57,386 nucleotides of DNA from Rhodopseudomonas sp. BR0M22 (lineage in GTDB: Bacteria; Pseudomonadota; Alphaproteobacteria; Rhizobiales; Xanthobacteraceae): contig NZ_QUMK01000033.1 in assembly GCF_010907035.1 (NCBI RefSeq), positions 1 to 57,386 of the forward strand, in the 5' to 3' direction. The notes under the pieces are model-generated. The model was not told where the DNA came from, searched no databases, and saw only the letters and a list, made by a program, of their open reading frames with translations. Positions 33,887-53,509 of this stretch are shown here, in pieces (position 1 is the stretch's first letter; the number at the start of each line of letters is the position of its first letter). A program made the position numbers and the translations under genes.

Positions 33887-36871
33887 ATGTATCGTATTGT
33901 GCGACGCGAGCAGTTCTCGGACGCGACTTTCCTGTGGGACGTCGAGGCGCCGGACATCGCGGCTTCCGCCGAGCCCGGCCATTTCGTGATGCTCCGTCTT
34001 TACGACGGCGCCGAGCGCATTCCGCTCACCGTCGCCGACTTCGATCGCGACAAGGGGCTGGTGACCGTCGTGGTCCAGGCGCTCGGCAAGACCACGCGCG
34101 AGATGCGCGACAAGTTCAAGGAAGGCGAGGCGTTCGAAGACTTCGTCGGTCCGCTCGGCCTGCCGCAGCATATCGACAAGGTCGATCACGTGGTGTTCGT
34201 CGGCGGCGGCCTCGGCGTCGCGCCGATTTTCCCGCAGCTCCGCGCCTTCAAACAGTCCGGCGCGCGCACCACCGCGATCATGGGATTCCGCACCAAGGAT
34301 CTGGTGTTCTGGGAAGACAAGTTCCGCGAGTTCGCCGACGAACTGATCATCTGCACCGACGACGGCAGCTACGGCGAGGCAGGCTTGGTCACCGCGGCGC
34401 TGGAGCGGGTGATCACCCAGCAGAAGCCCGACAAGGTGGTGGCGATCGGCCCGATGCCGATGATGCACGCCTGCGTCGAGACCACCCGTCCGCACGGCGT
34501 CAAGACCATGGTGTCGCTGAATACGATCATGGTCGACGGCACCGGCATGTGCGGCTCGTGCCGGGTCACGGTCGGCAATGAAGTGAAGTTCGCCTGCGTC
34601 GACGGCCCGGATTTCGACGGCCACAAGGTCGACTTCCACGAGCTGCACGCCCGCCAGAAGCGTTTCAAGACCGAGGAAGACAAGGCGAACGAACATTTCG
34701 CCCATGTCTGCAATCTCGAAAAGCAGCTGATCGTCGAGGGCAAGCGCAACTACAAGAAACTGGCGACGCTGCCGCCGCATCAGACCCCGATGCCGGAGCG
34801 TGACGCCCACGAGCGCGCCGCCAATTTCAAGGAAGTCAATCTCGGCTATTCGGTCGAGGAAGCGCTGCAGGAAGCCGAGCGCTGCATTCAGTGCATCACG
34901 CCGACTTGCGTGGCCGGCTGCCCGGTCGGGATCGACATTCCGGTATTCATTCGGAACATCCTGTTCCGCGACTTCGATGCGGCGCTGGAGACGATCTATC
35001 AGTCGAGCATCTTCCCGTCGATCTGCGGCCGGGTCTGCCCGCAGGAGACGCAGTGCGAAGCGCAGTGCATCATCCGCAAGTACAAGAAGCACGAGCCGGT
35101 CGCGATCGGTCGGCTCGAGCGTTTCGTCGGCGACAATGCGCGGGCGCCGAAGAGCAAGCCGATCGATCTGTCCAAGACGATCGGCAAGGTTGCAATCGTC
35201 GGCTCCGGTCCGGCCGGCCTTGCCGCCGCCGCTGATCTCACCCGCTACAATGTCGAAACCACGGTCTATGAGGCGCTGCATGTGCTCGGCGGCGTGCTGC
35301 AATACGGCATTCCGTCGTTCCGGTTGCCGCGCGACATCATCGACCGCGAAATCCAGCGGCTGAAGGATATCGGCGTCAAGTTCGAGACCAACAAGGTCGT
35401 CGGCAAGACCTTCACGATCGAACAGTTGATGAACGGCCGCGGCTTCGACGCGGTGTTCGTCGCGGCGGGCGCCGGTGCGCCGACCTTCCTGGGTATCCCC
35501 GGCGAATTCGCCGGCCGGGTCTATTCGGCCAACGAATTCCTCACCCGTATCAATCTGATGGGCGGCGATCGCTTCCCGTATCTCGACACGCCGGTCAGCG
35601 TCGGTAACAGCGTGATCGTAATCGGTGCCGGCAACACCGCGATGGATTGCCTGCGCGTCGCCCGCCGCGTCGGCGCCGCGACGGTGCGCTGCGTCTATCG
35701 CCGGTCGGAGGCCGAGGCGCCGGCCCGCATCGAAGAAATCCGCCACGCCAAGGAGGAAGGCGTCGACTTCTTCTTCCTGCATTCGCCGGTGGAGATTCTC
35801 GTCACCGAGAGCGGCGACGTCCGCGCGGTGCGGCTGCAGAAGATGGAGCTCGGCGAGGCCGACGAACGGGGTCGCCGCAAGCCCGTGCCGCTCGACGAGT
35901 TCATCGAGCTCGAATGCGACACGGTGATCTACGCGCTCGGCACCAAGCCCAATCCGATCATCGGTCAGGCGACGCCGGGGCTCGAGCTCAACAAGTGGGG
36001 CAACATCGCGGCCGACGACGACACCCAGTCGACCAACATGCCGGGCGTGTTCGCCGGCGGCGACATCGTCACCGGCGGTGCGACCGTGATCCTGGCGATG
36101 AGCGCGGGCCGCCGCGCCGCCAAGTCGATCGCCGCCTGGCTGCGGCTGAACAAGACCAAATGGCCCATTACGGCGCAGGACGCCGACGACTTCGTCGCCG
36201 GCAAGCTGGCGCCGCCGATCGAGGAGGAAGGCGTGGCGCATTGCCCGAAGTGTCACCAGCAGCTGGAAGGCCCGGAGGAGTACATCTGCTGCGCCGGCTC
36301 CGAGCTGCAGTGGCGCTGCGACGATTGCGCCAAGGTCAGCGAAGGCTTCGCGTTCCCCTACGGCATGTGCCCGCATTGCGGTGGCAAGCTGCAGCCGCTC
36401 GACCGCGCCGGCGTCAGCGACGAAGCGGGGCTGGCGGCGATCCGCACCGCGTTCGAAATCGAACTCGGTGGCCGCGCGTTCTATGCGCGCGCCGCCAAGG
36501 AAACCTCAGATCCGACCTTGCAGGAGCTGTTCCTGAGCTTCGCCGAGATGGAAGAGGAGCACATGACGACGCTAGCCAATCGCTATCATGTGGCGATTCC
36601 GCAGGCGACCGAAGGCTTCCACCTCGGCACCGCGGCGATCATGGCCGGCGTCAAAGGACAGATCGGCGATCCGACCACGCTGTTCGAAGCCGCGATCGAG
36701 TTCGAGCGGCGCGCCGCCTCGTTCTTCAAGACCCGGGTCGGCGAGACGCCGGACGGATCGGTCGAACGCCAGCTCTATCGCGAGCTCGCCGCCGAAGAGG
36801 ACGAGCACGTCTCGGTGCTGCAGACCGAATTCGCGCGCTGGAAGGAAGGCAAGCGCGGGCTGCTGACGTAA
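33887..36871 (+). CDS. NfnA-NfnB flavoprotein fused to a rubrerythrin-like module
   Basis: 994 residues. 1-280: NfnA-like reductase with FAD motif RIPLTVAD, nucleotide loop GGGLGVAP, and a [2Fe-2S] site Asp217-Cys222-Cys225-Cys237, matching the unusual Asp+3Cys ligation known for NfnA. 310-770: NfnB/GltD-like part with eight [4Fe-4S] Cys (333, 336, 341, 345, 380, 384, 390, 394) and two Rossmann motifs (VAIVGSGPAG, VIVIGAGNTAMD). 785-833: zinc ribbon of Cys-x2-Cys pairs. 845-994: ferritin-like domain with EIELGGRAFY, EMEEEH, EFERRAASFF and EEDEH as diiron ligands. Nfn proteins link NADH, NADPH and ferredoxin; the added domain suggests NAD(P)H-driven peroxide or O2 reduction (inference). No strong ribosome site; the MYRIVRREQF start is family-typical. 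Confidence 0.88.
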   Translation: MYRIVRREQFSDATFLWDVEAPDIAASAEPGHFVMLRLYDGAERIPLTVADFDRDKGLVTVVVQALGKTTREMRDKFKEGEAFEDFVGPLGLPQHIDKVDHVVFVGGGLGVAPIFPQLRAFKQSGARTTAIMGFRTKDLVFWEDKFREFADELIICTDDGSYGEAGLVTAALERVITQQKPDKVVAIGPMPMMHACVETTRPHGVKTMVSLNTIMVDGTGMCGSCRVTVGNEVKFACVDGPDFDGHKVDFHELHARQKRFKTEEDKANEHFAHVCNLEKQLIVEGKRNYKKLATLPPHQTPMPERDAHERAANFKEVNLGYSVEEALQEAERCIQCITPTCVAGCPVGIDIPVFIRNILFRDFDAALETIYQSSIFPSICGRVCPQETQCEAQCIIRKYKKHEPVAIGRLERFVGDNARAPKSKPIDLSKTIGKVAIVGSGPAGLAAAADLTRYNVETTVYEALHVLGGVLQYGIPSFRLPRDIIDREIQRLKDIGVKFETNKVVGKTFTIEQLMNGRGFDAVFVAAGAGAPTFLGIPGEFAGRVYSANEFLTRINLMGGDRFPYLDTPVSVGNSVIVIGAGNTAMDCLRVARRVGAATVRCVYRRSEAEAPARIEEIRHAKEEGVDFFFLHSPVEILVTESGDVRAVRLQKMELGEADERGRRKPVPLDEFIELECDTVIYALGTKPNPIIGQATPGLELNKWGNIAADDDTQSTNMPGVFAGGDIVTGGATVILAMSAGRRAAKSIAAWLRLNKTKWPITAQDADDFVAGKLAPPIEEEGVAHCPKCHQQLEGPEEYICCAGSELQWRCDDCAKVSEGFAFPYGMCPHCGGKLQPLDRAGVSDEAGLAAIRTAFEIELGGRAFYARAAKETSDPTLQELFLSFAEMEEEHMTTLANRYHVAIPQATEGFHLGTAAIMAGVKGQIGDPTTLFEAAIEFERRAASFFKTRVGETPDGSVERQLYRELAAEEDEHVSVLQTEFARWKEGKRGLLT

Positions 36872-39757: not shown

Positions 39758-40792
39758 ATGATGACGATCTTTCACCCGACCCGCCGCGGTGTCCGGCTGT
39801 TCAGCGTTTTCTGCCTCGGTGTTGGTGTTCTGGCGGGCCCGCTCCCGGCCCATGCCGACGACAAATTCGACAAGCTGATCCAGAAGCTGATGCCCAAGCG
39901 GCTGCCCGCGGGCTTCGCCTCGGCCAACGGCCGGCTGGAATCGGAGCAGGTCGAGATCGCCACCAAGCTGGCTGGCCGGATCGCCGAAGTGCTGGTGAAG
40001 GAGGGCGACGAGGTCGAGAAGGGCCAGCTTCTGGTGAAGATGGACGTCTCCGACATTCAGGCCCAGCTCCTCGCCGCCGAAGCGCAGGAGCGCCGCGCCG
40101 TGCAGAGCAAGGCGGTGGCCGAAGCGATGGTGCTGCAGCGGGAGAGCGAGCAGAAGCTGGCGGCTCAGCAGCTCGGCCGCGCCGAGGCGCTGTTCGAGAA
40201 AGGCTTCTCCACCGCGGAAATCCGCGACCAGCGCCAGTCCGCGCAGAACGTCGCCGATGCGGCGCTGATCGCCGCGAAGGCCAGCCTCAGCGATGCGACG
40301 GCGGCGATCGATGCCGCGCGCGCCGAGGTGGCGCGGATCAAGACCGTGCTCGACGACATGCAGTTGAAGGCGCCGCGCCGCGGCCGCATCCAGTACAAGC
40401 TGGCGCAGGCCGGCGAAGTGCTCGGGGCCGGCTCCCGCGTGCTGACGCTGGTCGATCTCACCGACGTCTACATGACGGTGTTCGTACCGGCGAGCGTCGC
40501 CGCCGGATTGGCTTACGGCTCCGACGCCCGACTGATTCTGGATGCGATCCCGCAATATGTGGTGCCGGCGAAGGTCACCTTCGTGGCCAGCGAGGCGCAG
40601 TTCACCCCGAAAGCGGTCGAGACCAAGGACGAGCGCGAAAAGCTGATGTTCCGCGTCAAGCTGACGCTGCCGCCGGACCTGCTGCGCAAATACGAGCGCG
40701 AGGTGAAGACCGGTGTGCGCGGCATGGCGTATTTGCGCACGGACAGCGACAAGCCATGGCCGGATAATCTCAAGGTCAAGCTGCCGCAATGA
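39758..40792 (+). CDS. HlyD-type periplasmic adaptor (YhiI-like)
   Basis: 344 residues. N-terminal signal or anchor (LFSVFCLGVGVLAGPLPAHA), lipoyl/barrel halves (VEIATKLAGRIAEVLVKEGD, MQLKAPRRGRIQYKLAQAGE) flanking a long coiled-coil hairpin (about 105-195), and a beta-barrel end. It links an inner-membrane ABC transporter to an outer-membrane channel. Start ATG 39758 follows CGGAG; a second ATG is adjacent. It overlaps the ATPase gene by 4 bp. Confidence 0.9.
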   Translation: MMTIFHPTRRGVRLFSVFCLGVGVLAGPLPAHADDKFDKLIQKLMPKRLPAGFASANGRLESEQVEIATKLAGRIAEVLVKEGDEVEKGQLLVKMDVSDIQAQLLAAEAQERRAVQSKAVAEAMVLQRESEQKLAAQQLGRAEALFEKGFSTAEIRDQRQSAQNVADAALIAAKASLSDATAAIDAARAEVARIKTVLDDMQLKAPRRGRIQYKLAQAGEVLGAGSRVLTLVDLTDVYMTVFVPASVAAGLAYGSDARLILDAIPQYVVPAKVTFVASEAQFTPKAVETKDEREKLMFRVKLTLPPDLLRKYEREVKTGVRGMAYLRTDSDKPWPDNLKVKLPQ

Positions 40793-43503
40793 CCGGCTTC
40801 GCCGCGCGTCTCACGCATGTCACTCACACCTATGGTGCGACACATGCGCTGGACGACGTCACGCTGGAATTGCCCGCCGGCAAGATGGTCGGCCTGATCG
40901 GGCCCGACGGCGTCGGCAAATCGACGCTGCTGGCGCTGATCGCCGGCGTGCGCCGGATTCAGACCGGCGAGGTGATGGCGCTGGACGGCGATATGCGCGA
41001 CGCCCGTCACCGCGCCGCAAGCGCGGCGCGGATCGCCTACATGCCGCAGGGGCTCGGACGTAACCTGTATCCGACCCTGTCGGTGTTCGAGAATCTGGAC
41101 TTCTTCGGCCGGCTGTTCGGTCAGGGCACGGCCGAGCGCAAGGCGCGCATCGCCGAATTGCTGAGCGCCACCGGGCTGTCGCCGTTCGGCGATCGGCCCG
41201 CCGGCAAATTGTCCGGCGGCATGAAGCAGAAGCTGTCGCTGTGCTGCGCGCTGATCCACGATCCGGACCTGTTGATCCTCGACGAGCCGACCACCGGCGT
41301 CGACCCGCTGTCGCGTCGGCAGTTCTGGGAATTGATCGACCGCATCCGGAAGCGCCGTCCGCAGATGAGCGTGCTGGTCGCGACCGCCTATATGGAAGAG
41401 GCCGAGCGGTTCGACTGGCTCGCCGCCCTCAACGACGGCAAGATCATCGGCGCCGGCACGCCGGCCGAGCTGCGGGCGCAGACCAAGCAGCCGACACTCG
41501 ACGCCGCCTTCATCGCGCTGCTGCCGGCGGAGATGCGCGGCGATTATGCCGACGTCGTATTGCCGCCGCTGCCGGACAGCGGCGACGGCTACGCGATCGA
41601 AGCCCAGAACCTGACCTGCCGGTTCGGCGATTTCACCGCGGTCGATCACGTCAACTTCCAGATCAAGCGCGGCGAGATTTTCGGCTTCCTCGGCTCCAAC
41701 GGCTGCGGCAAGTCGACCACGATGAAGATGCTGACCGGCCTGCTGACGCCGAGCGAAGGCGAGGCGCGGCTGTTCGGCGAGGTGCTCGACGCCTCCGACA
41801 TGGCGACCCGCAAGCGTGTCGGCTACATGTCGCAGAGCTTTTCGCTCTACGCCGAACTGACAGTGCGGCAGAACCTGCTGCTGCATGCGCAATTGTTCGA
41901 GCTGCCGAGCGCGCAGATTCCGGATCGCGTCGCCGAAATGCTGGCGCGGTTCGATCTCGCCGACGTCGCCGATGCCCGGCCCGACGGTCTGCCGCTCGGC
42001 CTGCGTCAGCGGCTGCAGCTCGCGGTCGCGGTGATCCACCGCCCCGAAGTGCTGATCCTCGACGAGCCGACCTCCGGCGTCGATCCGGTGGCGCGGGATT
42101 CGTTCTGGCGGATGTTGATCGCGCTGTCGCGCCAGGACGGCGTCACCATCTTCATCTCCACCCACTTCATGAACGAGGCCGAGCGCTGCGATCGGATATC
42201 GCTGATGCACGCCGGCAAGGTGCTGGCGGTCGGCGCGCCGCACGAGCTGGTGGCGCGCCGCGGCGCCGCCGATCTCGAACAGACCTTCATCGCCTATCTG
42301 GAAGAAGCGACCGGCGCGCAGCGCGACGGCGAGGAGACCAGCCTGGCGGCGCCGCGCGAGGCCGCGGCCAAGCTGCGGCGGTTCGATCCGGCGCGGCTGT
42401 GGGCCTATGCCCGCCGCGAGACCATGGAGATCCTGCGCGACCGGCTGCGGCTCGCGTTTGCGATTCTCGGCCCGCTGGTCCTGATGCTGACTTTCGGATT
42501 CGGCATTTCGTTCGACGTCGAGAATTTGACCTACGCGGTCTACGATCAGGACAACACGCTGGAAAGCCGCGAACTGCTGGAGAGCTTTTCCGGTTCGCGC
42601 TACTTCAAGCAGGCGCCCGACATCGCCTCCGCGGCCGACATCGACCGGCGTCTCGCCAGCGGCGAACTCAAGCTGGTGATCGAAGTACCGCACGGCTTCG
42701 GCCGCGACTTGCTGACCAGCAAGTCTCCGGAAGTCGCGGTGTGGATCGACGGCTCGATGCCGTTCCGCGCCGAGACCATCCGCTCCTACGTTACCGGGCT
42801 GTCGCAGGCCTATCTTGCCGAGCAGTATCGGCGCCATGCGATGGCGTCGCCGGCCTCGCCGATCAATATCGAAACCCGGTTTCGCTACAATCAGGCGTTC
42901 AAGAGCGTGTATTCGATCATTCCTGGCGTGATCACGCTGATCCTGATGCTGATCCCGGCGATGCTGACCGCGGTCGGCGTCGTCCGCGAAAAGGAAGTCG
43001 GCTCGATCTCCAACTTCCGCTCGACGCCGGTCACAGCGACCGAGTTCCTGCTCGGCAAGCAGCTGCCCTACGCCCTGCTGTCGTTCTTCAGCTTCGTGCT
43101 GCTGCTGGTCGGGGCGATGGTGATCTTCGGTGTTCCGGTTCGCGGGTCGTGGACGGCTTTGGTCGGCGGGGCGCTGCTCTACGTGTTCTCCACCACCGCG
43201 CTCGGTGTGTTGTTCTCGTCGTTCCTGCGCACTCAGATCGCCGCCATCTTCGTGGTCGCGATCATCTCGATCATCCCGGCCGTCAACTTCTCCGGTCTGT
43301 TGGTGCCGGTGTCGTCGCTGTCGCAGATCGGGCGATTGTTCGGCGAGGCGTTTCCCGCGGCCTGGTTCCAGGAGGTCAGTATCGGCGCCTTCACCAAGGG
43401 CATGGGGTTCTGGATGCTGTCGCCGAACCTGTTGGTGCTGTTCGGATTCGGTCTGACTTATCTGATCTGCGCCATTCTGGTGCTGCGCAAGCAGGAGGCG
43501 TGA
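40789..43503 (+). CDS. Fused ABC transporter, two ATPases plus ABC-2 permease (RbbA-like)
   Basis: 904 residues, close to E. coli RbbA/YhiH. ATPase 1: Walker A GPDGVGKST (38-46), signature LSGGMKQKLS, Walker B LLILDEPT. ATPase 2: GSNGCGKST (about 302-310), degenerate signature PLGLRQRLQL, Walker B VLILDEPTSG. From about residue 560 an ABC-2 permease with six helices (VITLILMLIPAMLTAVGVVR; FFSFVLLLVGAMVIFG; AAIFVVAIISIIPAVNFSGL). It probably exports a drug or lipid with its neighbours; the substrate is unknown. Confidence 0.9.
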   Translation: MTGFAARLTHVTHTYGATHALDDVTLELPAGKMVGLIGPDGVGKSTLLALIAGVRRIQTGEVMALDGDMRDARHRAASAARIAYMPQGLGRNLYPTLSVFENLDFFGRLFGQGTAERKARIAELLSATGLSPFGDRPAGKLSGGMKQKLSLCCALIHDPDLLILDEPTTGVDPLSRRQFWELIDRIRKRRPQMSVLVATAYMEEAERFDWLAALNDGKIIGAGTPAELRAQTKQPTLDAAFIALLPAEMRGDYADVVLPPLPDSGDGYAIEAQNLTCRFGDFTAVDHVNFQIKRGEIFGFLGSNGCGKSTTMKMLTGLLTPSEGEARLFGEVLDASDMATRKRVGYMSQSFSLYAELTVRQNLLLHAQLFELPSAQIPDRVAEMLARFDLADVADARPDGLPLGLRQRLQLAVAVIHRPEVLILDEPTSGVDPVARDSFWRMLIALSRQDGVTIFISTHFMNEAERCDRISLMHAGKVLAVGAPHELVARRGAADLEQTFIAYLEEATGAQRDGEETSLAAPREAAAKLRRFDPARLWAYARRETMEILRDRLRLAFAILGPLVLMLTFGFGISFDVENLTYAVYDQDNTLESRELLESFSGSRYFKQAPDIASAADIDRRLASGELKLVIEVPHGFGRDLLTSKSPEVAVWIDGSMPFRAETIRSYVTGLSQAYLAEQYRRHAMASPASPINIETRFRYNQAFKSVYSIIPGVITLILMLIPAMLTAVGVVREKEVGSISNFRSTPVTATEFLLGKQLPYALLSFFSFVLLLVGAMVIFGVPVRGSWTALVGGALLYVFSTTALGVLFSSFLRTQIAAIFVVAIISIIPAVNFSGLLVPVSSLSQIGRLFGEAFPAAWFQEVSIGAFTKGMGFWMLSPNLLVLFGFGLTYLICAILVLRKQEA

Positions 43504-46543: not shown

Positions 46544-47191
46544 CTACCACATCGACGCCTTGGCGCGTTCAGGCCAGGCGCGGTCGTAGGCTTCGCCGCC
46601 GACGCGGCCTTCGGTCATCGAAGCCAGGATTTCGCCGGGCGTCGGCAGCGTGTCCTGTGCGACCTGTTTGCTCGGGTCCCACAGGCCGGAGCGGATCAGC
46701 GCACGGCCGCATTGGAAATAGATTTCCTCGACCGTCATCACGATCACGGTGCGCGGCGCCTTGCCTTCGACGTCGAAAGACATCCGCAAAGCCTCATCGG
46801 CCGTGACATAGCCGCGGCCGTTGATGCGCAGCGCGTTGGTCGAGCCGGGGATCAGCAGCATCAGCGCGATGCGCGGATCGCGCACCACGTTGCGCAAGGA
46901 ATCGATCCGGTTGTTGCCGCGGCGATCCGGGATCAGCAGCGTGGTGTCGTCATAGACACGAATGAAGCCAGGGACGTCGCCGCGCGGCGAACAGTCGAGT
47001 CCTTCGGGTCCGACGGTGGCGAGCGCTGCGAACGGCGATTTCTCGATCAGGGTGCGATAGGGCGGCGTGATCCAGTGCGCCACCTTTTCGGTGGAGGCGT
47101 CGTTCGGCACACCGTAGATCGCCTCCAGCGCCTCGACCGTGTCGAGCGCAGGGAAGGCGGGGCGGCGGTCGTCAGGGCTGCGGGCGTCCAT
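46544..47191 (-). CDS. Pyridoxamine 5'-phosphate oxidase-like FMN-binding protein
   Basis: 215 residues. A split-barrel flavin fold with ATVGPEGLDCSPRGDVPGFI, TLLIPDRRGNNRIDSLRNVV and NALRINGRGYVTADE, and a C-terminal EIYFQCGRALIRSGLWDP segment that places it in the MSMEG_1061/PNPOx-related group. Substrate unknown. Its ATG lies 20 bp inside the 3' end of phnN, so it is the last cistron of the phn operon. Confidence 0.85.
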   Translation of the reverse strand: MDARSPDDRRPAFPALDTVEALEAIYGVPNDASTEKVAHWITPPYRTLIEKSPFAALATVGPEGLDCSPRGDVPGFIRVYDDTTLLIPDRRGNNRIDSLRNVVRDPRIALMLLIPGSTNALRINGRGYVTADEALRMSFDVEGKAPRTVIVMTVEEIYFQCGRALIRSGLWDPSKQVAQDTLPTPGEILASMTEGRVGGEAYDRAWPERAKASMW

Positions 47192-47756
47192 GGCGGATAA
47201 TCTCCAACAAGTCTTGGGCGTGGGCGATCGGATCGCCGACATTGCTGATGGTGACGTCGGGATGCGCCGCAACGTTGCGCCCGACGCGGTCGGTGATGCT
47301 GCCGTCGCTGGCGCGGGCCCGCACCGCGATCCGGGCGGCCAGCACCTCGGCCGGCGCCGTGATCAGCACGACGACGACATTGGCGTAAGCGCTGCGCGCT
47401 GGGTCGATCACCATCCGCGACACGTTGGCCACCACGGTGCGTCCGGCGCGGATGTCGTCGTCGAGACCGCGCGGCAGACCGTAGGCATGGCCGTGGGCGC
47501 GCCAAGACAGCGCGAAATCCCCGGCGGCTTCGAGGCGGCTGAAGTCGTCCGGCGTGACCTGCAGATTGTCCTCGGCCGCAGAGGCTTCGCGGGTGACGGT
47601 GCGGCGCGCAAATACGATCGCCGTGTCGTCGGCACCGAGCGAGCGGGCGGCATTGATCAGCGTGTCCTTGCCGGCGCCGGAGGGGCCGACCACCAGCACC
47701 AACCGCCCCGGGCCGATCAGTTTCGTCGTCTGCTCCGCCACCGCGATATCCGTCAT
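47172..47756 (-). CDS. phnN: Ribose 1,5-bisphosphate phosphokinase
   Basis: 194 residues. P-loop VVGPSGAGKDTL, guanylate-kinase-like fold with RRTVTREASAAEDN and RAHGHAYGLPRGLD. It converts ribose 1,5-bisphosphate to PRPP, the last step of C-P lyase product recycling. It overlaps phnM by 4 bp and the FMN-binding gene by 20 bp. Confidence 0.95.
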   Translation of the reverse strand: MTDIAVAEQTTKLIGPGRLVLVVGPSGAGKDTLINAARSLGADDTAIVFARRTVTREASAAEDNLQVTPDDFSRLEAAGDFALSWRAHGHAYGLPRGLDDDIRAGRTVVANVSRMVIDPARSAYANVVVVLITAPAEVLAARIAVRARASDGSITDRVGRNVAAHPDVTISNVGDPIAHAQDLLEIIRHGRPQP

Positions 47757-48931
47757 GCCACGCGCTGTCCTTCGCGCCAGACGCTGCGCACCGCCGGCAC
47801 GTCGTGTGCGACATGGACGCGGATCAGGTCGGCGCGCTTGCCCGTGGAGACCTCGCCGCGATCGTTGAGGCCGACCGCTTCGGCCGGTGCCTTGGTGACG
47901 GTGCGGATCGCGGCGGCGAGATCGATCGCCGGCGCGCGCATCGGCAATTGCAGCGCCGCGATCAACAGGCTCGACGGGATGTAGTCCGACGACAGGATGT
48001 CGAGCAGTCCCTCGTGCGCCAGGTCGATCGCCGCGATGTTGCCGGAGTGCGAGCCGCCGCGCACCACGTTGGGGGCGCCCATCAGGATTTCGATGCCGGC
48101 CTGGTGCAGCTCGCGCGCCGCCTCCAGCGTGGTCGGGAATTCGGCGACCGCGACCCGGTCGCGGATCGCGTCGGCGACGTTCTCGGGCGTGGTGTCGTCG
48201 TGGCTCGCCAGCGGAATCTCGTAACGATGCGCCAGCTCGACGATCGCCCGCATATTGGCGTCGGCGTAGGTCTCCTTGCAGTACACCCGGCGTGCGAACA
48301 TCACGTCGAGCTCGGCATCGGTCATGCCGGCTCCCTTGCCGCGGTAGTAATCGCGCAGCTTTTCCTCGTCGCGGAACTGGCGCTGGCCCGGCGTGTGATC
48401 CATCAGCGACATCAGCCGGATGTCGGGACGGTCGATCAGCTCCTTGGCCTCGGCCACCACGTTCGGCATCGGAATTTCGCAGCGCAGATGCAGGAAGTGA
48501 TCGGCGCGCAGCAGCTGCGCGTCGCGTGCCGTCGAGATCGCGCCGGCCAGCACGATCGCCTGGCCATCGACCTCCTCGGCGCCTTCCTCGCGCCACACCC
48601 GGAGCGAGTCGAGCACCGTGGTGATGCCGCAGGTTGCGAGCTGACCGTCGTAGGACACCACGGCGGCGACCGGATTCCACTGCACCTTGGGGCGCGGCGT
48701 GTAGTGCGCTTCGAGATGATCGGTGTGCAGCTCGACCAGCCCCGGCATCACCAGATCGCCTTGCATGTCCTTGGCGCCGTTGGGCGCGGCGCCTTCGCCG
48801 ATTTCCGCAATCACCCCGTCGGCGATCGCGACCCAGCCGTGTTCGATCACCCGATCGGCCAGCACCAGCCGGGCATTGCCCAGCACCATCTCCTGCGAAT
48901 TGTTCATGGTCTCGTTCATTCCATTGGTCAA
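47753..48931 (-). CDS. phnM: Phosphonate metabolism triphosphate diphosphatase
   Basis: 392 residues. Amidohydrolase-like, with metal motif VELHTDHLEAHYTPRP, then LHLRCEI, LASHDDTTPEN and GAPNVVRGGSHSGNIAA. It removes pyrophosphate from the ribose 5-triphosphate phosphonate intermediate to give the substrate of PhnJ. The first ATG (48931) overlaps phnL; Met codons at 48919 and later are alternatives. Confidence 0.95.
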   Translation of the reverse strand: MTNGMNETMNNSQEMVLGNARLVLADRVIEHGWVAIADGVIAEIGEGAAPNGAKDMQGDLVMPGLVELHTDHLEAHYTPRPKVQWNPVAAVVSYDGQLATCGITTVLDSLRVWREEGAEEVDGQAIVLAGAISTARDAQLLRADHFLHLRCEIPMPNVVAEAKELIDRPDIRLMSLMDHTPGQRQFRDEEKLRDYYRGKGAGMTDAELDVMFARRVYCKETYADANMRAIVELAHRYEIPLASHDDTTPENVADAIRDRVAVAEFPTTLEAARELHQAGIEILMGAPNVVRGGSHSGNIAAIDLAHEGLLDILSSDYIPSSLLIAALQLPMRAPAIDLAAAIRTVTKAPAEAVGLNDRGEVSTGKRADLIRVHVAHDVPAVRSVWREGQRVA

Positions 48932-49641
48932 GCGGCGGCGGCAAACGAGGTCACGTCGACGATGCGGTCCGCGATGATCTCACGGATCTCGTCGTCGTGC
49001 ACGATGGCGATGATCGCGGCGCCCTGCGCCTTTGTCTCGGCGATCAGCTCGACCACCACGGCGCGATTCTTGGCGTCGAGCGATGCGGTCGGCTCGTCGA
49101 GCAGCAGGATCGGCGTGTGCGAGATGAAGCCGCGGGCGATGTTGACGCGCTGCTGTTCGCCGCCCGAGAACGTCGCCGGCGGCAGCGTCCACAGCCGCTC
49201 CGGAATATTGAGCCGGCGCAGCAGCACGCCAGCCTGTTCGCGCGCCGCCTCGCGGGCGGTGCCCTGCACGATCAGCGGTTCGGCCACGACGTCGAGCGCC
49301 GCGACGCGGGGGACGGCGCGCAGAAACTGGCTGACATAGCCGATGCTGCCGCGCCGCGCGGCGAGGATCTGCCGCGGCTGCGCGGTGGCGATGTCGAGCG
49401 TATCACCCTCATGGGCGATACGGATCGCGCCGGAGTCGCAGCGATAATTGCCGAAGATCATTTTCAGGATCGACGATTTGCCCGCGCCGGAGGGGCCGGA
49501 CAGCACGACGCATTCGCCGGGCTGAACCTGGAAGCTGACGCCGCGCACCACCGGCAGCGTCACGCCGCCCTGCAGATGCATGACGAAACTCTTCTGGGCG
49601 TTATCGACGACGAGAGCGGGAGTTTGGGTCATGGTCATCAC
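48928..49641 (-). CDS. phnL: C-P lyase ABC-type ATPase PhnL
   Basis: 237 residues. Walker A LSGPSGAGKSSIL, signature FSGGEQQRVNIARG, Walker B ILLLDEPTASLD. With PhnK it associates with the PhnGHIJ core. There is no membrane partner in the operon, so it is not a transporter subunit. It overlaps phnK by 4 bp. Confidence 0.95.
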   Translation of the reverse strand: MMTMTQTPALVVDNAQKSFVMHLQGGVTLPVVRGVSFQVQPGECVVLSGPSGAGKSSILKMIFGNYRCDSGAIRIAHEGDTLDIATAQPRQILAARRGSIGYVSQFLRAVPRVAALDVVAEPLIVQGTAREAAREQAGVLLRRLNIPERLWTLPPATFSGGEQQRVNIARGFISHTPILLLDEPTASLDAKNRAVVVELIAETKAQGAAIIAIVHDDEIREIIADRIVDVTSFAAAA

Positions 49642-50456
49642 GCCGGAAGGATCGAGGAGACGAGCAATTGCGTATAGGGTTCGCGTGGATCGTCGAGCAC
49701 CTGGTCGGTCAGCCCGGTCTCGATGACGCGGCCGGATTTCATCACCAGAATGCGGTGCGACAGCAGCCGCGCCACCGCCAGATCGTGGGTGACGACGATC
49801 GCGGCGAGCCCAAGTTCGGCCACCAGGCTGCGGACCAGATCAAGCAGCCGCGCCTGCACCGAGACGTCCAGTCCACCGGTCGGCTCGTCCATGAAGACGA
49901 GGCGCGGATCGGTGACGAGGTTGCGGGCGATCTGCAGCCGCTGCCGCATGCCGCCCGAATAGGTGCGCGGCGCGTCGTCGATGCGGCCGGTGTCGATTTC
50001 GACCCGCTCCAGCCAGTCGCTGGCGACGCTGCGAATCTTGCCGTAGTGGTTCCAGCCGATCGCCATCAGCCGTTCGCCGACATTGGCGCCCGCCGAGACC
50101 GCCATGCGCAGGCCCTGCGCCGGGTCCTGATGCACGAAGCCCCAATCGGTGCGCAGCAGCAGGCGCCGTTCTGCTTCGCCGAGTTCGGCGAGATCGCGCA
50201 ACACGCCGTCGCGCATCCGATACGACACGCGACCGGCGCTCGGCGTCATCTGTCCCGACAGCATCTGCAGCAGGGTCGATTTGCCGGAGCCGGATTCGCC
50301 GACGATCGCCAGCACTTCGCCGGGGAAGAGTTCGAACGACACGCCGCGGCACGCATCAATCCGGCCGTAGCGCTTCGACAGGCCGTCGGCGATCAGCAGC
50401 GGCTGATCGGAAGCGACGAAGGTGTCCAATGCGGCGGACGAAACGCGATCAAGCAT
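49638..50456 (-). CDS. phnK: C-P lyase ABC-type ATPase PhnK
   Basis: 272 residues. Walker A IVGESGSGKSTLL, signature YSGGMRQRLQIAR, Walker B LVFMDEPTGGLD, and an H-loop in VTHDLAVAR. PhnK binds the PhnJ side of the C-P lyase core. Residues 1-18 extend a little beyond E. coli PhnK. It overlaps phnJ by 8 bp. Confidence 0.95.
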   Translation of the reverse strand: MLDRVSSAALDTFVASDQPLLIADGLSKRYGRIDACRGVSFELFPGEVLAIVGESGSGKSTLLQMLSGQMTPSAGRVSYRMRDGVLRDLAELGEAERRLLLRTDWGFVHQDPAQGLRMAVSAGANVGERLMAIGWNHYGKIRSVASDWLERVEIDTGRIDDAPRTYSGGMRQRLQIARNLVTDPRLVFMDEPTGGLDVSVQARLLDLVRSLVAELGLAAIVVTHDLAVARLLSHRILVMKSGRVIETGLTDQVLDDPREPYTQLLVSSILPA

Positions 50457-51327
50457 GGGCGCTCTCCATCGGTGTGGTTTCGCTGCCGGTGTGACCCTCG
50501 GCGCGGCGGCCTTCGCAGTAATCGGTGTCGGAGCACACGAACATCCGGGTGCCGGCGTTATCGGTGACGATCTCGTCGAGATAGGAATCGTCGGCGCCGC
50601 ACAGCGCGCAGCAGCCGTCCTGGCGATAGCGCGTGAACGGATGGTCTTCGAAATCCAGCGACACCACCTGGGTGTAGGGCGGGATCGCGTAGATCCGCTT
50701 CTCGCGGCCGGCGCCGAACAGTTGCAGCGCCGGGCAGTTGTCCATCTTGGGATTGTCGAACTTCGGCGTCGGTGACGGATCCATCACGTAGCGGCCGGCG
50801 ACCTTCACCGGATAGGCATAGGCGGTGGCGATGTGGCCGAACTTGGCGATGTCCTCGTACAGCTTGACGTGCATCAGCCCGTATTCGGCGAGCGCATGCA
50901 TGCGCCGGGTCTCGGTCTCGCGCGGTTCGAGATAGCGCAGCGGCTCGGGGATCGGCACCTGATACACCAGCACCTGGCCCTCGTGCAGCGGCGTCTCGGG
51001 AATGCGGTGCCGGGTCTGGATCACGCTCGCGTCCGGCGTCGACGTGGTGGTGGCGACACCGGCGGTCTTGGCGAAGAACTTGCGGATCGAGATCGCGTTG
51101 GTGGTGTCGTCGCTGCCCTGGTCGATCACCTTGAGCGTATCGTCCGGGCCGAGGATCGACGCCGTCACCTGCACGCCGCCGGTGCCCCAGCCATACGGCA
51201 TCGGCATCTCGCGACTGGCGAACGGCACCTGATAGCCGGGGATCGCGATTGCTTTCAGGATCGCCCGGCGGATCATCCGCTTGGTCTGCTCGTCGAGATA
51301 AGCGAAATTGTAAGTCGCTTCGGTCAT
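50449..51327 (-). CDS. phnJ: C-P lyase radical SAM subunit
   Basis: 292 residues. It cleaves the carbon-phosphorus bond of ribose 5-phosphonates by radical SAM chemistry. The atypical cluster-binding region is GCCALCGADDSYLDE ... MFVCSDTDYCEG, and the upstream MPYGWGTGGVQVTASILGPD block is strongly conserved. The start at ATG 51327 overlaps phnI by 4 bp. The C-terminal tail (GRRAEGHTGSETTPMESAHA) is polar and variable. Confidence 0.96.
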   Translation of the reverse strand: MTEATYNFAYLDEQTKRMIRRAILKAIAIPGYQVPFASREMPMPYGWGTGGVQVTASILGPDDTLKVIDQGSDDTTNAISIRKFFAKTAGVATTTSTPDASVIQTRHRIPETPLHEGQVLVYQVPIPEPLRYLEPRETETRRMHALAEYGLMHVKLYEDIAKFGHIATAYAYPVKVAGRYVMDPSPTPKFDNPKMDNCPALQLFGAGREKRIYAIPPYTQVVSLDFEDHPFTRYRQDGCCALCGADDSYLDEIVTDNAGTRMFVCSDTDYCEGRRAEGHTGSETTPMESAHA

Positions 51328-52421
51328 TCCGCGGCCTCGCGCAGCTCGGGTTGGTCCTGGTTGAATTCGGCGCGCAGCTTGCGCAGCAGGCCGAGCTCGG
51401 ACTGGAAATCGACATAGTGCGGCAGCTTCAGATGCTCGACGAAGCCGGTCGCCTGGACGTTGTCCGAATGCGACAGCACGAACTCCTCGTCCTGCGCCGG
51501 CGCCTTGACGTCCTCGCCGAGTTCTTGCGCGCGCAGCGCGCGATCGACCAGCGCCATCGACATCGCCTTGCGCTCGCTCTGGCCGAAGGCGAGGCCGTAG
51601 CCTCGGGTGAAGCGCGGCGCTTCGGTCGCCGAGCCTTTGAACTGATTGACCATCTGGCACTCGGTCAGCGCCACGCTGCCGAGCGGCACCGCGAAGCCGG
51701 CGTCTTCAGCCTCGAAGAACACCTCGACGTCGCCGAACCGGATTTCGCCGGCGAACGGATGGTTGCGGCCATAGCCGCGTTGAGTCGAATAGCCGAGTGC
51801 CAGCAGAAAGCCCTCGTCGGCGCGGGCGAGGTTCTGCAGCCGCAGGTCGCGTCCGGCTGGAAAATTCAGCGGCTCGCGGGTGAGGTCGCCGACCGCGCTG
51901 TCATCCTCGGCAACCGGCGATTCTTCGATCAGCCCGTCCTGGCGCAGGATGTCGGTGACCCGCGGCGTCGGTGCGTCACTGGCTTCCGCCGTCGCCGGCT
52001 CGGCTGGATCGCCGCTTTCGGCGAGCTGCGGATCGAGCAGCCGGTGGGTGTAGTCGAAGGTCGGGCCGAGGATCTGGCCGCCCGGAATGTCCTTGAAGGT
52101 CGAAGAAATACGCCGCCGCACCGCCATTGCGCCGGTGTCGACCGGCTCGGAGGAGCCGAACCGCGGGAGCGTGGCGCGGAACGCCCGCACCAGGAAGATC
52201 GCTTCGATCAGATCGCCGCGCGCCTGCTTGATCGCCAGGGCCGCCAGCTCGCGGTCGTAGAGCGAGCCTTCGCTCATCACCCGATCGACGCCGAGCGCGA
52301 GCTGCTCGGAGATCTGGTCGAGCGTCAGCTCCGGCACGTCGCGGTTGCCGCGGCGGGCATCGGCGAGCAGCCGGTGGGCATTGTCGATGGCGCGTTCGCC
52401 GCCTTTGACTGCGACATACAT
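51324..52421 (-). CDS. phnI: C-P lyase core subunit PhnI
   Basis: 365 residues starting MYVAVKGGERAIDNAHRLLA, the family N-terminus. Other conserved parts: VDRVMSEGSLYDRELAALAI, RRISSTFKDIPGGQILGPTF, and PHYVDFQSELGLLRKLR. With PhnG, PhnH and PhnL it couples the phosphonate to ribose triphosphate from ATP, displacing adenine. It lies 3 bp after phnH. Confidence 0.96.
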   Translation of the reverse strand: MYVAVKGGERAIDNAHRLLADARRGNRDVPELTLDQISEQLALGVDRVMSEGSLYDRELAALAIKQARGDLIEAIFLVRAFRATLPRFGSSEPVDTGAMAVRRRISSTFKDIPGGQILGPTFDYTHRLLDPQLAESGDPAEPATAEASDAPTPRVTDILRQDGLIEESPVAEDDSAVGDLTREPLNFPAGRDLRLQNLARADEGFLLALGYSTQRGYGRNHPFAGEIRFGDVEVFFEAEDAGFAVPLGSVALTECQMVNQFKGSATEAPRFTRGYGLAFGQSERKAMSMALVDRALRAQELGEDVKAPAQDEEFVLSHSDNVQATGFVEHLKLPHYVDFQSELGLLRKLRAEFNQDQPELREAAE

Positions 52422-52424
52422 CGG

Positions 52425-53027
52425 TCAGCTCCCTTGGCTGAGGCGTGTGGTGCGCGGGATCGCCACCACCTGATCGCCGCTCACCAGCACCACGTCGAGG
52501 CCGCGCGGAAACAGCGCGGCGTTGAAACTCAGGCGATCGAACAGGTCGGCCGGCTGCAGCGATGCCTGCAGCAGCGCCTCGCCGTCGATGCCTGGACCGT
52601 GCAGCCGGTAGCTGGCGCCGGAGCCCAGCGCCTGCACTTGAATAATGAGTGTGGTCGAACGGTCCGGATATTCGGGCGTGCCGAGCGCGAACCGCTCTAG
52701 CGGCAGAAGGGCCGAGCCGTCACCGATCAGCGCGAACGCCGCAGTAGAAGGATCGTCGGTCAGCGGCGCCCCGGTGTGAAACTTCAGCCAGCGCGCGGCC
52801 GTGCCGTCCGCCGCGATCGCGGCGTCGAGCCAGATCGGCGTGTCGTGGTCGAACAGCGTCAACGCCAGTGCGGCGCTGGCGTGCATCAGCGGCGCCGGTG
52901 TGCCGGCCTCGAAGGTGATGCGTTGAATGCGGCCGGGCCGCGCCATCGCTTCCATCACGGCGCGGAAGGTCGATTGCGCGCCGAGCACCTTGTCGGCAAA
53001 GCCGGCGGCAAGTTCGGTGGTGGTCAT
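52425..53027 (-). CDS. phnH: C-P lyase core subunit PhnH
   Basis: 200 residues. Conserved segments: QSTFRAVMEAMARPGRIQRI, LTLFDHDTPIWLD, FHTGAPLTDDPSTAAFALI, LGTPEYPDRSTTLIIQV, and RLHGPGIDGE. Structural partner of PhnGIJ. It lies 2 bp after phnG. Confidence 0.95.
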   Translation of the reverse strand: MTTTELAAGFADKVLGAQSTFRAVMEAMARPGRIQRITFEAGTPAPLMHASAALALTLFDHDTPIWLDAAIAADGTAARWLKFHTGAPLTDDPSTAAFALIGDGSALLPLERFALGTPEYPDRSTTLIIQVQALGSGASYRLHGPGIDGEALLQASLQPADLFDRLSFNAALFPRGLDVVLVSGDQVVAIPRTTRLSQGS

Positions 53028-53029
53028 GG

Positions 53030-53509
53030 TCAGCCCTCGCCTCGCACCAGCGTGTAGAAATCGACTTTGGTGGCAGCCGTCCGGGCGGCCTTTTCGGCGC
53101 GTGCGGCTTCGACTTCAGTCTGCAGCGGCGCGATCACCTCGGTCTCGACCGCAGCCGAATAGTCCGCCGATTGCAGCAGCGCGTCGCACAGCGCGATCAG
53201 CTTCGCCTTGGTACGGTCTCGCCCCAGCGTGTAGCCGAACCCGACCTCGCCGCTGGCGAGCCGCACCGCGGCGCGCGACACCGTCGCCTCGCCGACATTG
53301 AAGGCGGAGCCGTCGCCGCCGATCCGGCCGCGCAGCATCACCAGTCCCTGTTCGGGTTCGCGCAGCAGCGTGAACGCCGGCGGAGCCAGCGTGTCGAGGC
53401 GCGCGCCGATCGCGGCAGTCTCGGATGCGGCCAGTACCGCCATCGCGGCGCGCCGGCGCGCGGTTGCGGCTTGTTCGGGGGAGTTTTGTGTCTCCGCGTG
53501 CATCGCCAT
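53030..53509 (-). CDS. phnG: C-P lyase core subunit PhnG
   Basis: 159 residues from ATG 53509 (MAMHAETQNSPEQ). Conserved: RRAAMAVLAASETAAIGARL, LREPEQGLVMLRGRIGGDG, FNVGEATVSRAAVRL and GFGYTLGRDRTKAKLIALCD. First gene of the C-P lyase operon; the operator palindrome starts 9 bp upstream of the ATG. A longer open frame would run through the operator and is rejected. Confidence 0.94.
   Translation of the reverse strand: MAMHAETQNSPEQAATARRRAAMAVLAASETAAIGARLDTLAPPAFTLLREPEQGLVMLRGRIGGDGSAFNVGEATVSRAAVRLASGEVGFGYTLGRDRTKAKLIALCDALLQSADYSAAVETEVIAPLQTEVEAARAEKAARTAATKVDFYTLVRGEG

Follow-up and report, generated by a model that had tools for sequence, protein, structure and literature searches.

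The genomic stretch considered here (the window) comprises 57,386 nucleotides of Rhodopseudomonas sp. BR0M22 (positions 1 to 57,386 of contig NZ_QUMK01000033.1, assembly GCF_010907035.1). At positions 33887-36871 it contains one intact gene, which joins NfnA-like and NfnB-like parts (together NfnAB), i.e., counterparts of the two subunits of the Nfn transhydrogenase, to a C-terminal module (Rbr) consisting of a double Cys-rich ribbon and a diiron rubrerythrin-like domain. An initial annotation had proposed a single chain of NfnA, NfnB and a rubredoxin-first diiron module, and this layout is real: the open reading frame (ORF) is intact, a full-length family match is obtained and the ligands are kept. 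The features of the gene are as follows.

33887..36871, + strand: nfnA-nfnB-rbr fusion gene of 994 amino acids, including the stop codon (ORF, start, stop and length checked)
33887..34717, + strand: NfnA-like part, residues 1-277, FAD/NAD-binding and [2Fe-2S] domain (NF004862, 386.9 bits; aligned to 5jca_S)
34535..34597, + strand: [2Fe-2S] ligand stretch D217, C222, C225, C237 (conserved columns)
34778..36145, + strand: NfnB-like part, residues 298-753, two [4Fe-4S] clusters and FAD/NAD(P) domain (TIGR01316; 4ylf_B alignment)
34883..35119, + strand: [4Fe-4S] ligand stretch from C333 to E411, eight Cys and a Glu (38/38 rows)
36146..36238, + strand: linker, residues 754-784, which is the gene boundary in split relatives (junction alignments; looser selection)
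36239..36406, + strand: double Cys-rich ribbon, CxxC-x11-CC followed by rubredoxin-like CxxC-x13-CxxC (alignment; PF21349)
36431..36844, + strand: four-helix diiron domain E859, E889xxH892, E940, E971xxH974 (ligands, modelled helices, PF02915)

Residues 1-993 match NCBIfam NF009413 (PRK12775) with 2124.9 bits against a cut-off of 1895, and the start codon of the 994-residue ORF agrees with that of relatives, the majority of which open with MY.I. The NfnA part aligns to NfnI beta of P. furiosus and the NfnB part to the Nfn large subunits of T. maritima (4ylf_B) and P. furiosus (5jca_L). Within the NfnB part, TIGR01316 covers residues 308-752 at 542.9 bits, the 4ylf_B alignment spans residues 298-754, and PF14691 and PF07992 score over their cut-offs in a Pfam scan. 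Against PRK12778, which we take to be the family of the fused Nfn layout called pattern B (see below), residues 1-753 score 1008 bits, below the cut-off of 1103. Among C-terminal rows, PF02915 is found in 40/40 and the rubredoxin-like domain PF21349 in 14/40 (E 0.01); in the window protein, the Pfam Rubrerythrin model PF02915 (cut-off 22.8) scores 26.5 bits with the isolated domain and 21.1 bits with the whole protein, matching the first helices only.

The isolated C-terminal domain was modelled as a ribbon plus a helical bundle with a predicted local distance difference test score (pLDDT) of 79.7, and a Foldseek search with this domain ranked bacterioferritins and a COG1633 protein at the top, with no match below E 0.001. 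The full-length model is poor (mean pLDDT 69.9, predicted template modelling score, pTM, 0.46), and its Nfn part retrieves Nfn structures with a best E of 3.2e-39. A relation of the module to the genome's own MbfA was also considered and rejected, as the matches are short and weak.

Ligand conservation was assessed in 38 rows including the window and one outgroup for NfnAB, each column being counted in the rows where it is present, and in 43 rows for the C-terminal module, two of which (L008 and L012) represent a single genomic locus. At the [2Fe-2S] site, D217, C222 and C225 are each conserved in 35/35 rows and C237 in 37/37; in NfnB, the eight Cys and E411 are conserved in 38/38. C380 aligns with Thr in the P. 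furiosus Nfn large subunit, suggesting that the [4Fe-4S] ligands are likely seven Cys plus E411; the ligand roles of these residues, and of D217, C222, C225 and C237, are presumably those of Nfn and DPD structures. The initial statement that all Fe–S ligands are kept thus stands for conservation of Asp217 with three Cys and of the eight Cys, but C380 is likely no ligand, and E411 likely is one.

In the C-terminal module, the rubredoxin-like Cys set C811/C814/C828/C831 is present in 43/43 rows, and the first ribbon C786/C789/C801/C802 in 41/43, the exceptions being the fused loci L033 and L043. These belong to two Rubrivivax metagenome-assembled genomes and apparently represent a separate fusion that lost the first CxxC...CC ribbon. 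The diiron ligands E859, E889 and H892 are found in 43/43 rows, E940 in 42/42, and E971 and H974 in the 41/41 rows that reach them. This set of four Glu and two His is of the bacterioferritin kind. The column of Ala943 is also invariant (42/42); its helix is presumably the place of the second glutamate in classical rubrerythrin.

In the T. maritima and P. furiosus structures, both Nfn subunits resemble the window protein over nearly their full length, including the cluster ligands, whereas in the window protein the two subunits form one chain with an added ribbon–diiron module. A review of Nfn lists four layouts, patterns A-D (Liang et al. 2019; PMC6405883). In pattern B, found in Clostridium and Bacteroides, NfnA and then NfnB form one chain with no further module. 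The window protein has the same order plus the module and, as far as the available text of that review describes them, fits none of the four; the words 'ferritin', 'diiron' and 'rubrerythrin' do not occur in that text (PMC6405883). Likewise, 'fused', 'fusion', 'rubrerythrin' and 'ferritin' do not occur in the available part of PMC6085437. The review lists R. palustris among the carriers of an Nfn homolog and does not, in the part available, specify which one (PMC6405883); the window genome encodes two fused Nfn forms. The second has the reversed order (PRK12779, 2005 bits) and directly abuts a gene resembling pyruvate:ferredoxin oxidoreductase (PFOR), with 1652 residues.

L101:8807-16593 (window genome G000, contig C95), − strand: second fused Nfn and PFOR-like gene

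The reversed order of the rubredoxin-like and diiron parts, which the initial annotation contrasted with classical rubrerythrin, is that of an already described class, reverse rubrerythrin, according to the available text of PMC7482061. Two C. difficile members of this class reduce H2O2 and O2 with NADH via partner proteins (PMC7482061). The window module is similar in that the FeCys4 part precedes the diiron part (PMC7482061) and the ligands are ordered E, ExxH, E, ExxH, and differs in the extra CxxC...CC ribbon and the link to NfnAB, a likeness drawn at the level of domain and ligand order rather than of residues. A second relevant system is Rub-Bfu, in which a complex of BfuBC and rubrerythrin is predicted to reduce peroxide (PMC9304861, in the part available). 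There too, a bifurcating core lies beside a rubrerythrin gene (PMC9304861), but that core is BfuBC and the genes are separate, whereas the core here is Nfn. Among the Pfam, NCBIfam and PDB matches listed, the core of the window protein is of the Nfn/glutamate-synthase type and nothing assigns it to BfuB or BfuC, no Bfu-specific model having been among those searched.

An identical full-length architecture is found in NF009413/PRK12775, a computed family bearing a putative name, 'putative trifunctional 2-polyprenylphenol hydroxylase/glutamate synthase subunit beta/ferritin domain-containing protein', which hides what the protein is. The earlier view that no enzyme with this layout has been described is therefore incorrect in that the layout is catalogued, but searches of PubMed Central (PMC) full text gave no experimental description: no literature on NF009413/PRK12775 function was found there by name words or accession, and none of the titles listed describes the fusion, subscription papers and preprints being outside the scope of these searches.

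A C-terminal alignment scan of 84,980 species genomes yielded 41 loci, mostly in Alpha- and Betaproteobacteria; because two peptide patterns were used in the scan, this number is a lower bound. The fusion recurs in 11 of the 41 loci, with the window as an extra case, so that a search for the NfnA–NfnB–rubrerythrin architecture bears out that it is not confined to the window. In 29 loci an NfnAB gene is followed by a separate adjacent Rbr gene, and L050 has neither arrangement. L041 was counted as fused, as its Rbr frame is continuous with the end of NfnB, a run of N lying upstream, and L023, L038, L042, L045 and L048 were counted as split by their junctions. The rbr start overlaps the nfnAB stop as ATGA in 21/29 split loci (L025 and L047 included). 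The window protein is the single-chain form of this two-gene unit nfnAB-rbr, and the occurrence of both modules as neighbouring genes in many relatives suggests that they work together. A maximum-likelihood tree was built from 38 rows, of which 11 are fused, 25 are split and 2 have no label; L008 (a duplicate of L012), L009, L041 and partial NfnAB rows of <450 residues were left out. On this tree the fused label requires 3 changes, at least 2 of which are forced by the starred branches, but neither the root nor the direction of change is certain, given the great length of the outgroup branch.

At E 1e-250, the family is matched in 2/190, 3/398 and 2/101 genomes of even class, phylum and order samples, respectively; the window's genome is among the matches in each sample, and the matches of G170 and G610 are without the Rbr part. 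In a plasmid collection, no record spans 80% of the 994-residue protein. G170, which belongs to the same class and measures 0.9 Mb, retains an NfnAB of the window's clade (L007:1501-3819, 70% identity); no decayed rbr was found downstream of it, and no Rbr module was found genome-wide at E 1e-30.

The same frame is kept in R. palustris XCP (L010; 99.2% identity) and in R. pentothenatexigens (L011; 98.5%). Ratios of nonsynonymous to synonymous substitution rates (dN/dS) between the window and L010, L011 and L012 are 0.018-0.11 for NfnAB and 0.008-0.14 for Rbr, values that indicate purifying selection on either module; the linker is looser, with values of 0.15 and 0.59, that against L010 not being computable. 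A reading or assembly artefact merging separate genes, such as a frameshift or sequencing error, might be suggested by the presence of two genes in most relatives. It has practically no chance of being correct, as the same open frame occurs in these two other Rhodopseudomonas genomes (98.5-99.2%) and in other lineages, and purifying selection acts on either side of the junction.

The recurrent context of the module is ferredoxin metabolism, not hydrogenase. PFOR is the next gene, within ~200 bp, in 23/39 loci (those with >500 bp of downstream contig, L035, L047 and L048 being excluded). One of the 23, L050, has an Rbr gene with no NfnAB directly upstream; in this locus (L050:8986-16316) the Rbr copy stands directly before PFOR, and a gene for an FNR-family regulator lies upstream in place of NfnAB. 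Next comes a DHODH-like gene, in 21 loci, and 13 loci have a YfhL-type ferredoxin in operon position; the names PFOR, DHODH-like and YfhL-type rest on one scanned representative per homology cluster, and the clustering left out L007-L011, of which L010 and L011 were read separately. L020 adjoins rnf, and L013 and L037 are near relatives of indolepyruvate:ferredoxin oxidoreductase, with alpha-like parts below that family's cut-off and, in L013, a beta-like part scoring over the PRK08312 cut-off. PFOR is present in 33/42 module genomes (31 over cut-off) and in 19/181 genomes (18 over) of the class sample, a control drawn from the window's class and unmatched to the many betaproteobacterial loci. 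In addition, an FNR-type site is found in 13/31 upstream regions (L008 left out), where 0.02 are expected from shuffles and 0.8 from the loci's own background.

A hydrogenase cluster does lie upstream in the window (HypF, HypD, HypE and hydrogenase subunits), and it had been suggested to supply reducing power through H2 oxidation. The neighbourhood is not conserved among the 41 loci, in which the recurrent partners are ferredoxin-dependent oxidoreductases, and hydrogenase partnership was rejected as a general role. When flanks of at most 10 kb a side were compared (many contigs are shorter), one of the window's hup-region proteins matched, in L010 only, at ~7 kb from nfn as compared with 1.3 kb in the window; the L011 flank yielded no hup-region match, and the glutamine amidotransferase gene just downstream of the hup region was matched in L010 and L011. 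Nitrogen fixation was likewise rejected as a general role, nifH scoring over cut-off in 9/41 genomes with two more partial. The window genome carries nifH, and L035 and L045 sit among nif genes; no sigma54/NifA site was found upstream of the window gene, and one NifA-like site was found in L045.

At E 1e-30, the ribbon–diiron module was found 47 times across 44 genomes, five of which have two copies. Four of the five extra copies (L112-L115) are N-terminal on CoA-ligase-like chains of ~700-730 residues, an unusual architecture.

L112, 224-2404, − strand: module and CoA-ligase-like chain
L113, 3593-5749, − strand: module and CoA-ligase-like chain
L114, 5103-7214, + strand: module and CoA-ligase-like chain
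L115, 753-2879, + strand: module and CoA-ligase-like chain

The remainder of these chains resembles benzoate or 3-hydroxybenzoate CoA ligase, in all cases below the family cut-offs; in L112, the one copy scanned with Pfam, only AMP-binding domains are found beside rubrerythrin. Genes for 4-hydroxybenzoyl-CoA reductase adjoin three of the copies: the beta subunit of L112 and the alpha subunits of L113 and L114 score over cut-off, and the gamma subunit of L113 is just below it. As this reductase accepts electrons from ferredoxin, the ligase fusions again point to ferredoxin-linked, oxygen-sensitive pathways. In L115, a partial NfnAB frame terminates ~10 bp upstream of the module–ligase chain. 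The fifth extra copy, L111, reaches the contig end and has a phenylacetate-CoA-ligase-like gene and a molybdopterin oxidoreductase upstream. The reductase cluster of L113 also encodes a small ferritin-like protein (1518-2012, − strand), recognized by eye and having no NCBIfam match at 1e-40.

Nfn balances NADH, NADPH and ferredoxin as a family function (PMC6405883, in the part available). With this function, the reverse-rubrerythrin parts and the Rub-Bfu prediction taken together, the window protein can therefore be read as an Nfn with an oxygen/peroxide guard. The NfnAB part would most likely be a flavin-based electron-bifurcating transhydrogenase exchanging electrons among NADH, NADPH and ferredoxin, and the reverse-rubrerythrin-like module would most likely reduce O2 and/or H2O2 to water; the link to O2 or peroxide made at the outset is plausible. 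Electrons would enter the module at the FeCys4 ribbon and then reach the diiron site, with the chances that Nfn itself feeds this site being about even. By holding NfnAB and Rbr together, the cell might keep an O2/peroxide scavenger at the redox enzyme, which would allow ferredoxin-dependent, oxygen-labile metabolism to run in facultative or micro-oxic cells. We regard this reading, in which a reusable module that reduces O2/H2O2 is attached to an electron-bifurcating Nfn and guards such metabolism, as somewhat better than an even bet. In its favour are the recurrent joining of the two modules, their PFOR, nif and rnf neighbours, the FNR-type sites, the complete Fe–S and diiron ligands and the NADH-linked activities of the C. 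difficile reverse rubrerythrins.

Several points weigh against it. Foldseek matches the diiron domain weakly, the best hit being a bacterioferritin at E 3.2e-3, and at a full-length pTM of 0.46 distances between cofactors cannot be judged. Rbr occurs also without NfnAB directly upstream (L050), and since it is found fused to a CoA-ligase-like chain as well, a fusion is in itself no proof of electron transfer. The association with PFOR is uneven: besides the unmatched control, the window and L010-L014 (6/12 fused genomes) are without a PFOR match at E 1e-100, the other six having one, and the window genome has only the 1652-residue PFOR-like gene, located elsewhere and scoring 415 bits against a cut-off of 911. 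Of the 13 FNR-type sites, 11 are within one betaproteobacterial clade of the tree, and the 9 fused loci whose upstream sequence is long enough have none.

In a stronger version, the protein would be a peroxide/O2 reductase coupled to bifurcation, in which Nfn directly feeds its own diiron site. The chain would then be self-contained, oxidizing NAD(P)H (plus reduced ferredoxin) with H2O2 or O2 as the predicted Rub-Bfu enzymes would, but with Nfn as the core. The direct fusion and tight gene coupling, the full FeCys4 and diiron ligand sets, the prediction of Rub-Bfu for BfuBC plus rubrerythrin (PMC9304861) and the C. difficile protein FdpF, which has NADH and O2 chemistry on one chain (PMC6033852; both sources as far as available), are consistent with this version. 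However, the module is also found on CoA-ligase-like chains and without NfnAB directly upstream, unregulated electron flow into a diiron site of high potential would presumably short-circuit bifurcation, and the full-length model gives no structural support for a transfer path. The version is possible but doubtful, and the term 'self-contained' used in the initial annotation was an overstatement in light of the ligase chains. Alternatively, the module might serve as a sensor or safety switch, which senses O2 or peroxide and alters Nfn activity or docking with little turnover. The linker, more variable than either module, and the attachment of one module to enzymes of differing chemistry would suit such a role, but none of the diiron and FeCys4 ligands is missing, as in a catalytic rubrerythrin-like protein, and no regulatory family is among the Pfam matches, making a switch improbable. 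More improbable still is that the ferritin-like helices only join oligomers or bind iron: the top-ranked bacterioferritin and COG1633 fold matches and the presumed bacterioferritin kind of the ligand set are what such a scaffold or iron-handling role predicts, but it has no need of the rubredoxin-like CxxC-x13-CxxC that precedes the diiron domain in 43/43 rows.

Returning to the guard reading, a broader form of it can be proposed tentatively, with the odds against it as a whole: the ribbon–diiron module may be a portable oxygen/peroxide guard which, through a shared operon or a gene fusion, Alpha- and Betaproteobacteria join to oxygen-sensitive pathways driven by ferredoxin, the attachment sites being NfnAB in the window, NfnAB plus PFOR in betaproteobacteria and the CoA-ligase-like chain that adjoins 4-hydroxybenzoyl-CoA reductase. 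When fused to Nfn, the guard would receive its electrons directly from the bifurcating flavoenzyme, coupling peroxide/O2 removal to the NADH/NADPH/ferredoxin balance. The guard reading is testable because the split relatives and the ligase fusions offer the same module with and without an Nfn partner. Electron-bifurcating enzymes are known mostly from strict anaerobes; if true, this reading would show how low-potential ferredoxin chemistry survives near oxygen in phototrophic and facultative Proteobacteria. It would also extend the idea of bifurcation plus rubrerythrin, as Rub-Bfu is presented in the available part of PMC9304861, to an Nfn core.

Elsewhere in the window, positions 40789-43500 encode an RbbA-type ribosome-associated ABC ATPase/transporter (1484 bits) in a run that includes, by eye, an HlyD-like gene, and the genes at 46547-53443 resemble, also by eye, a phosphonate C–P lyase (phn) cluster.

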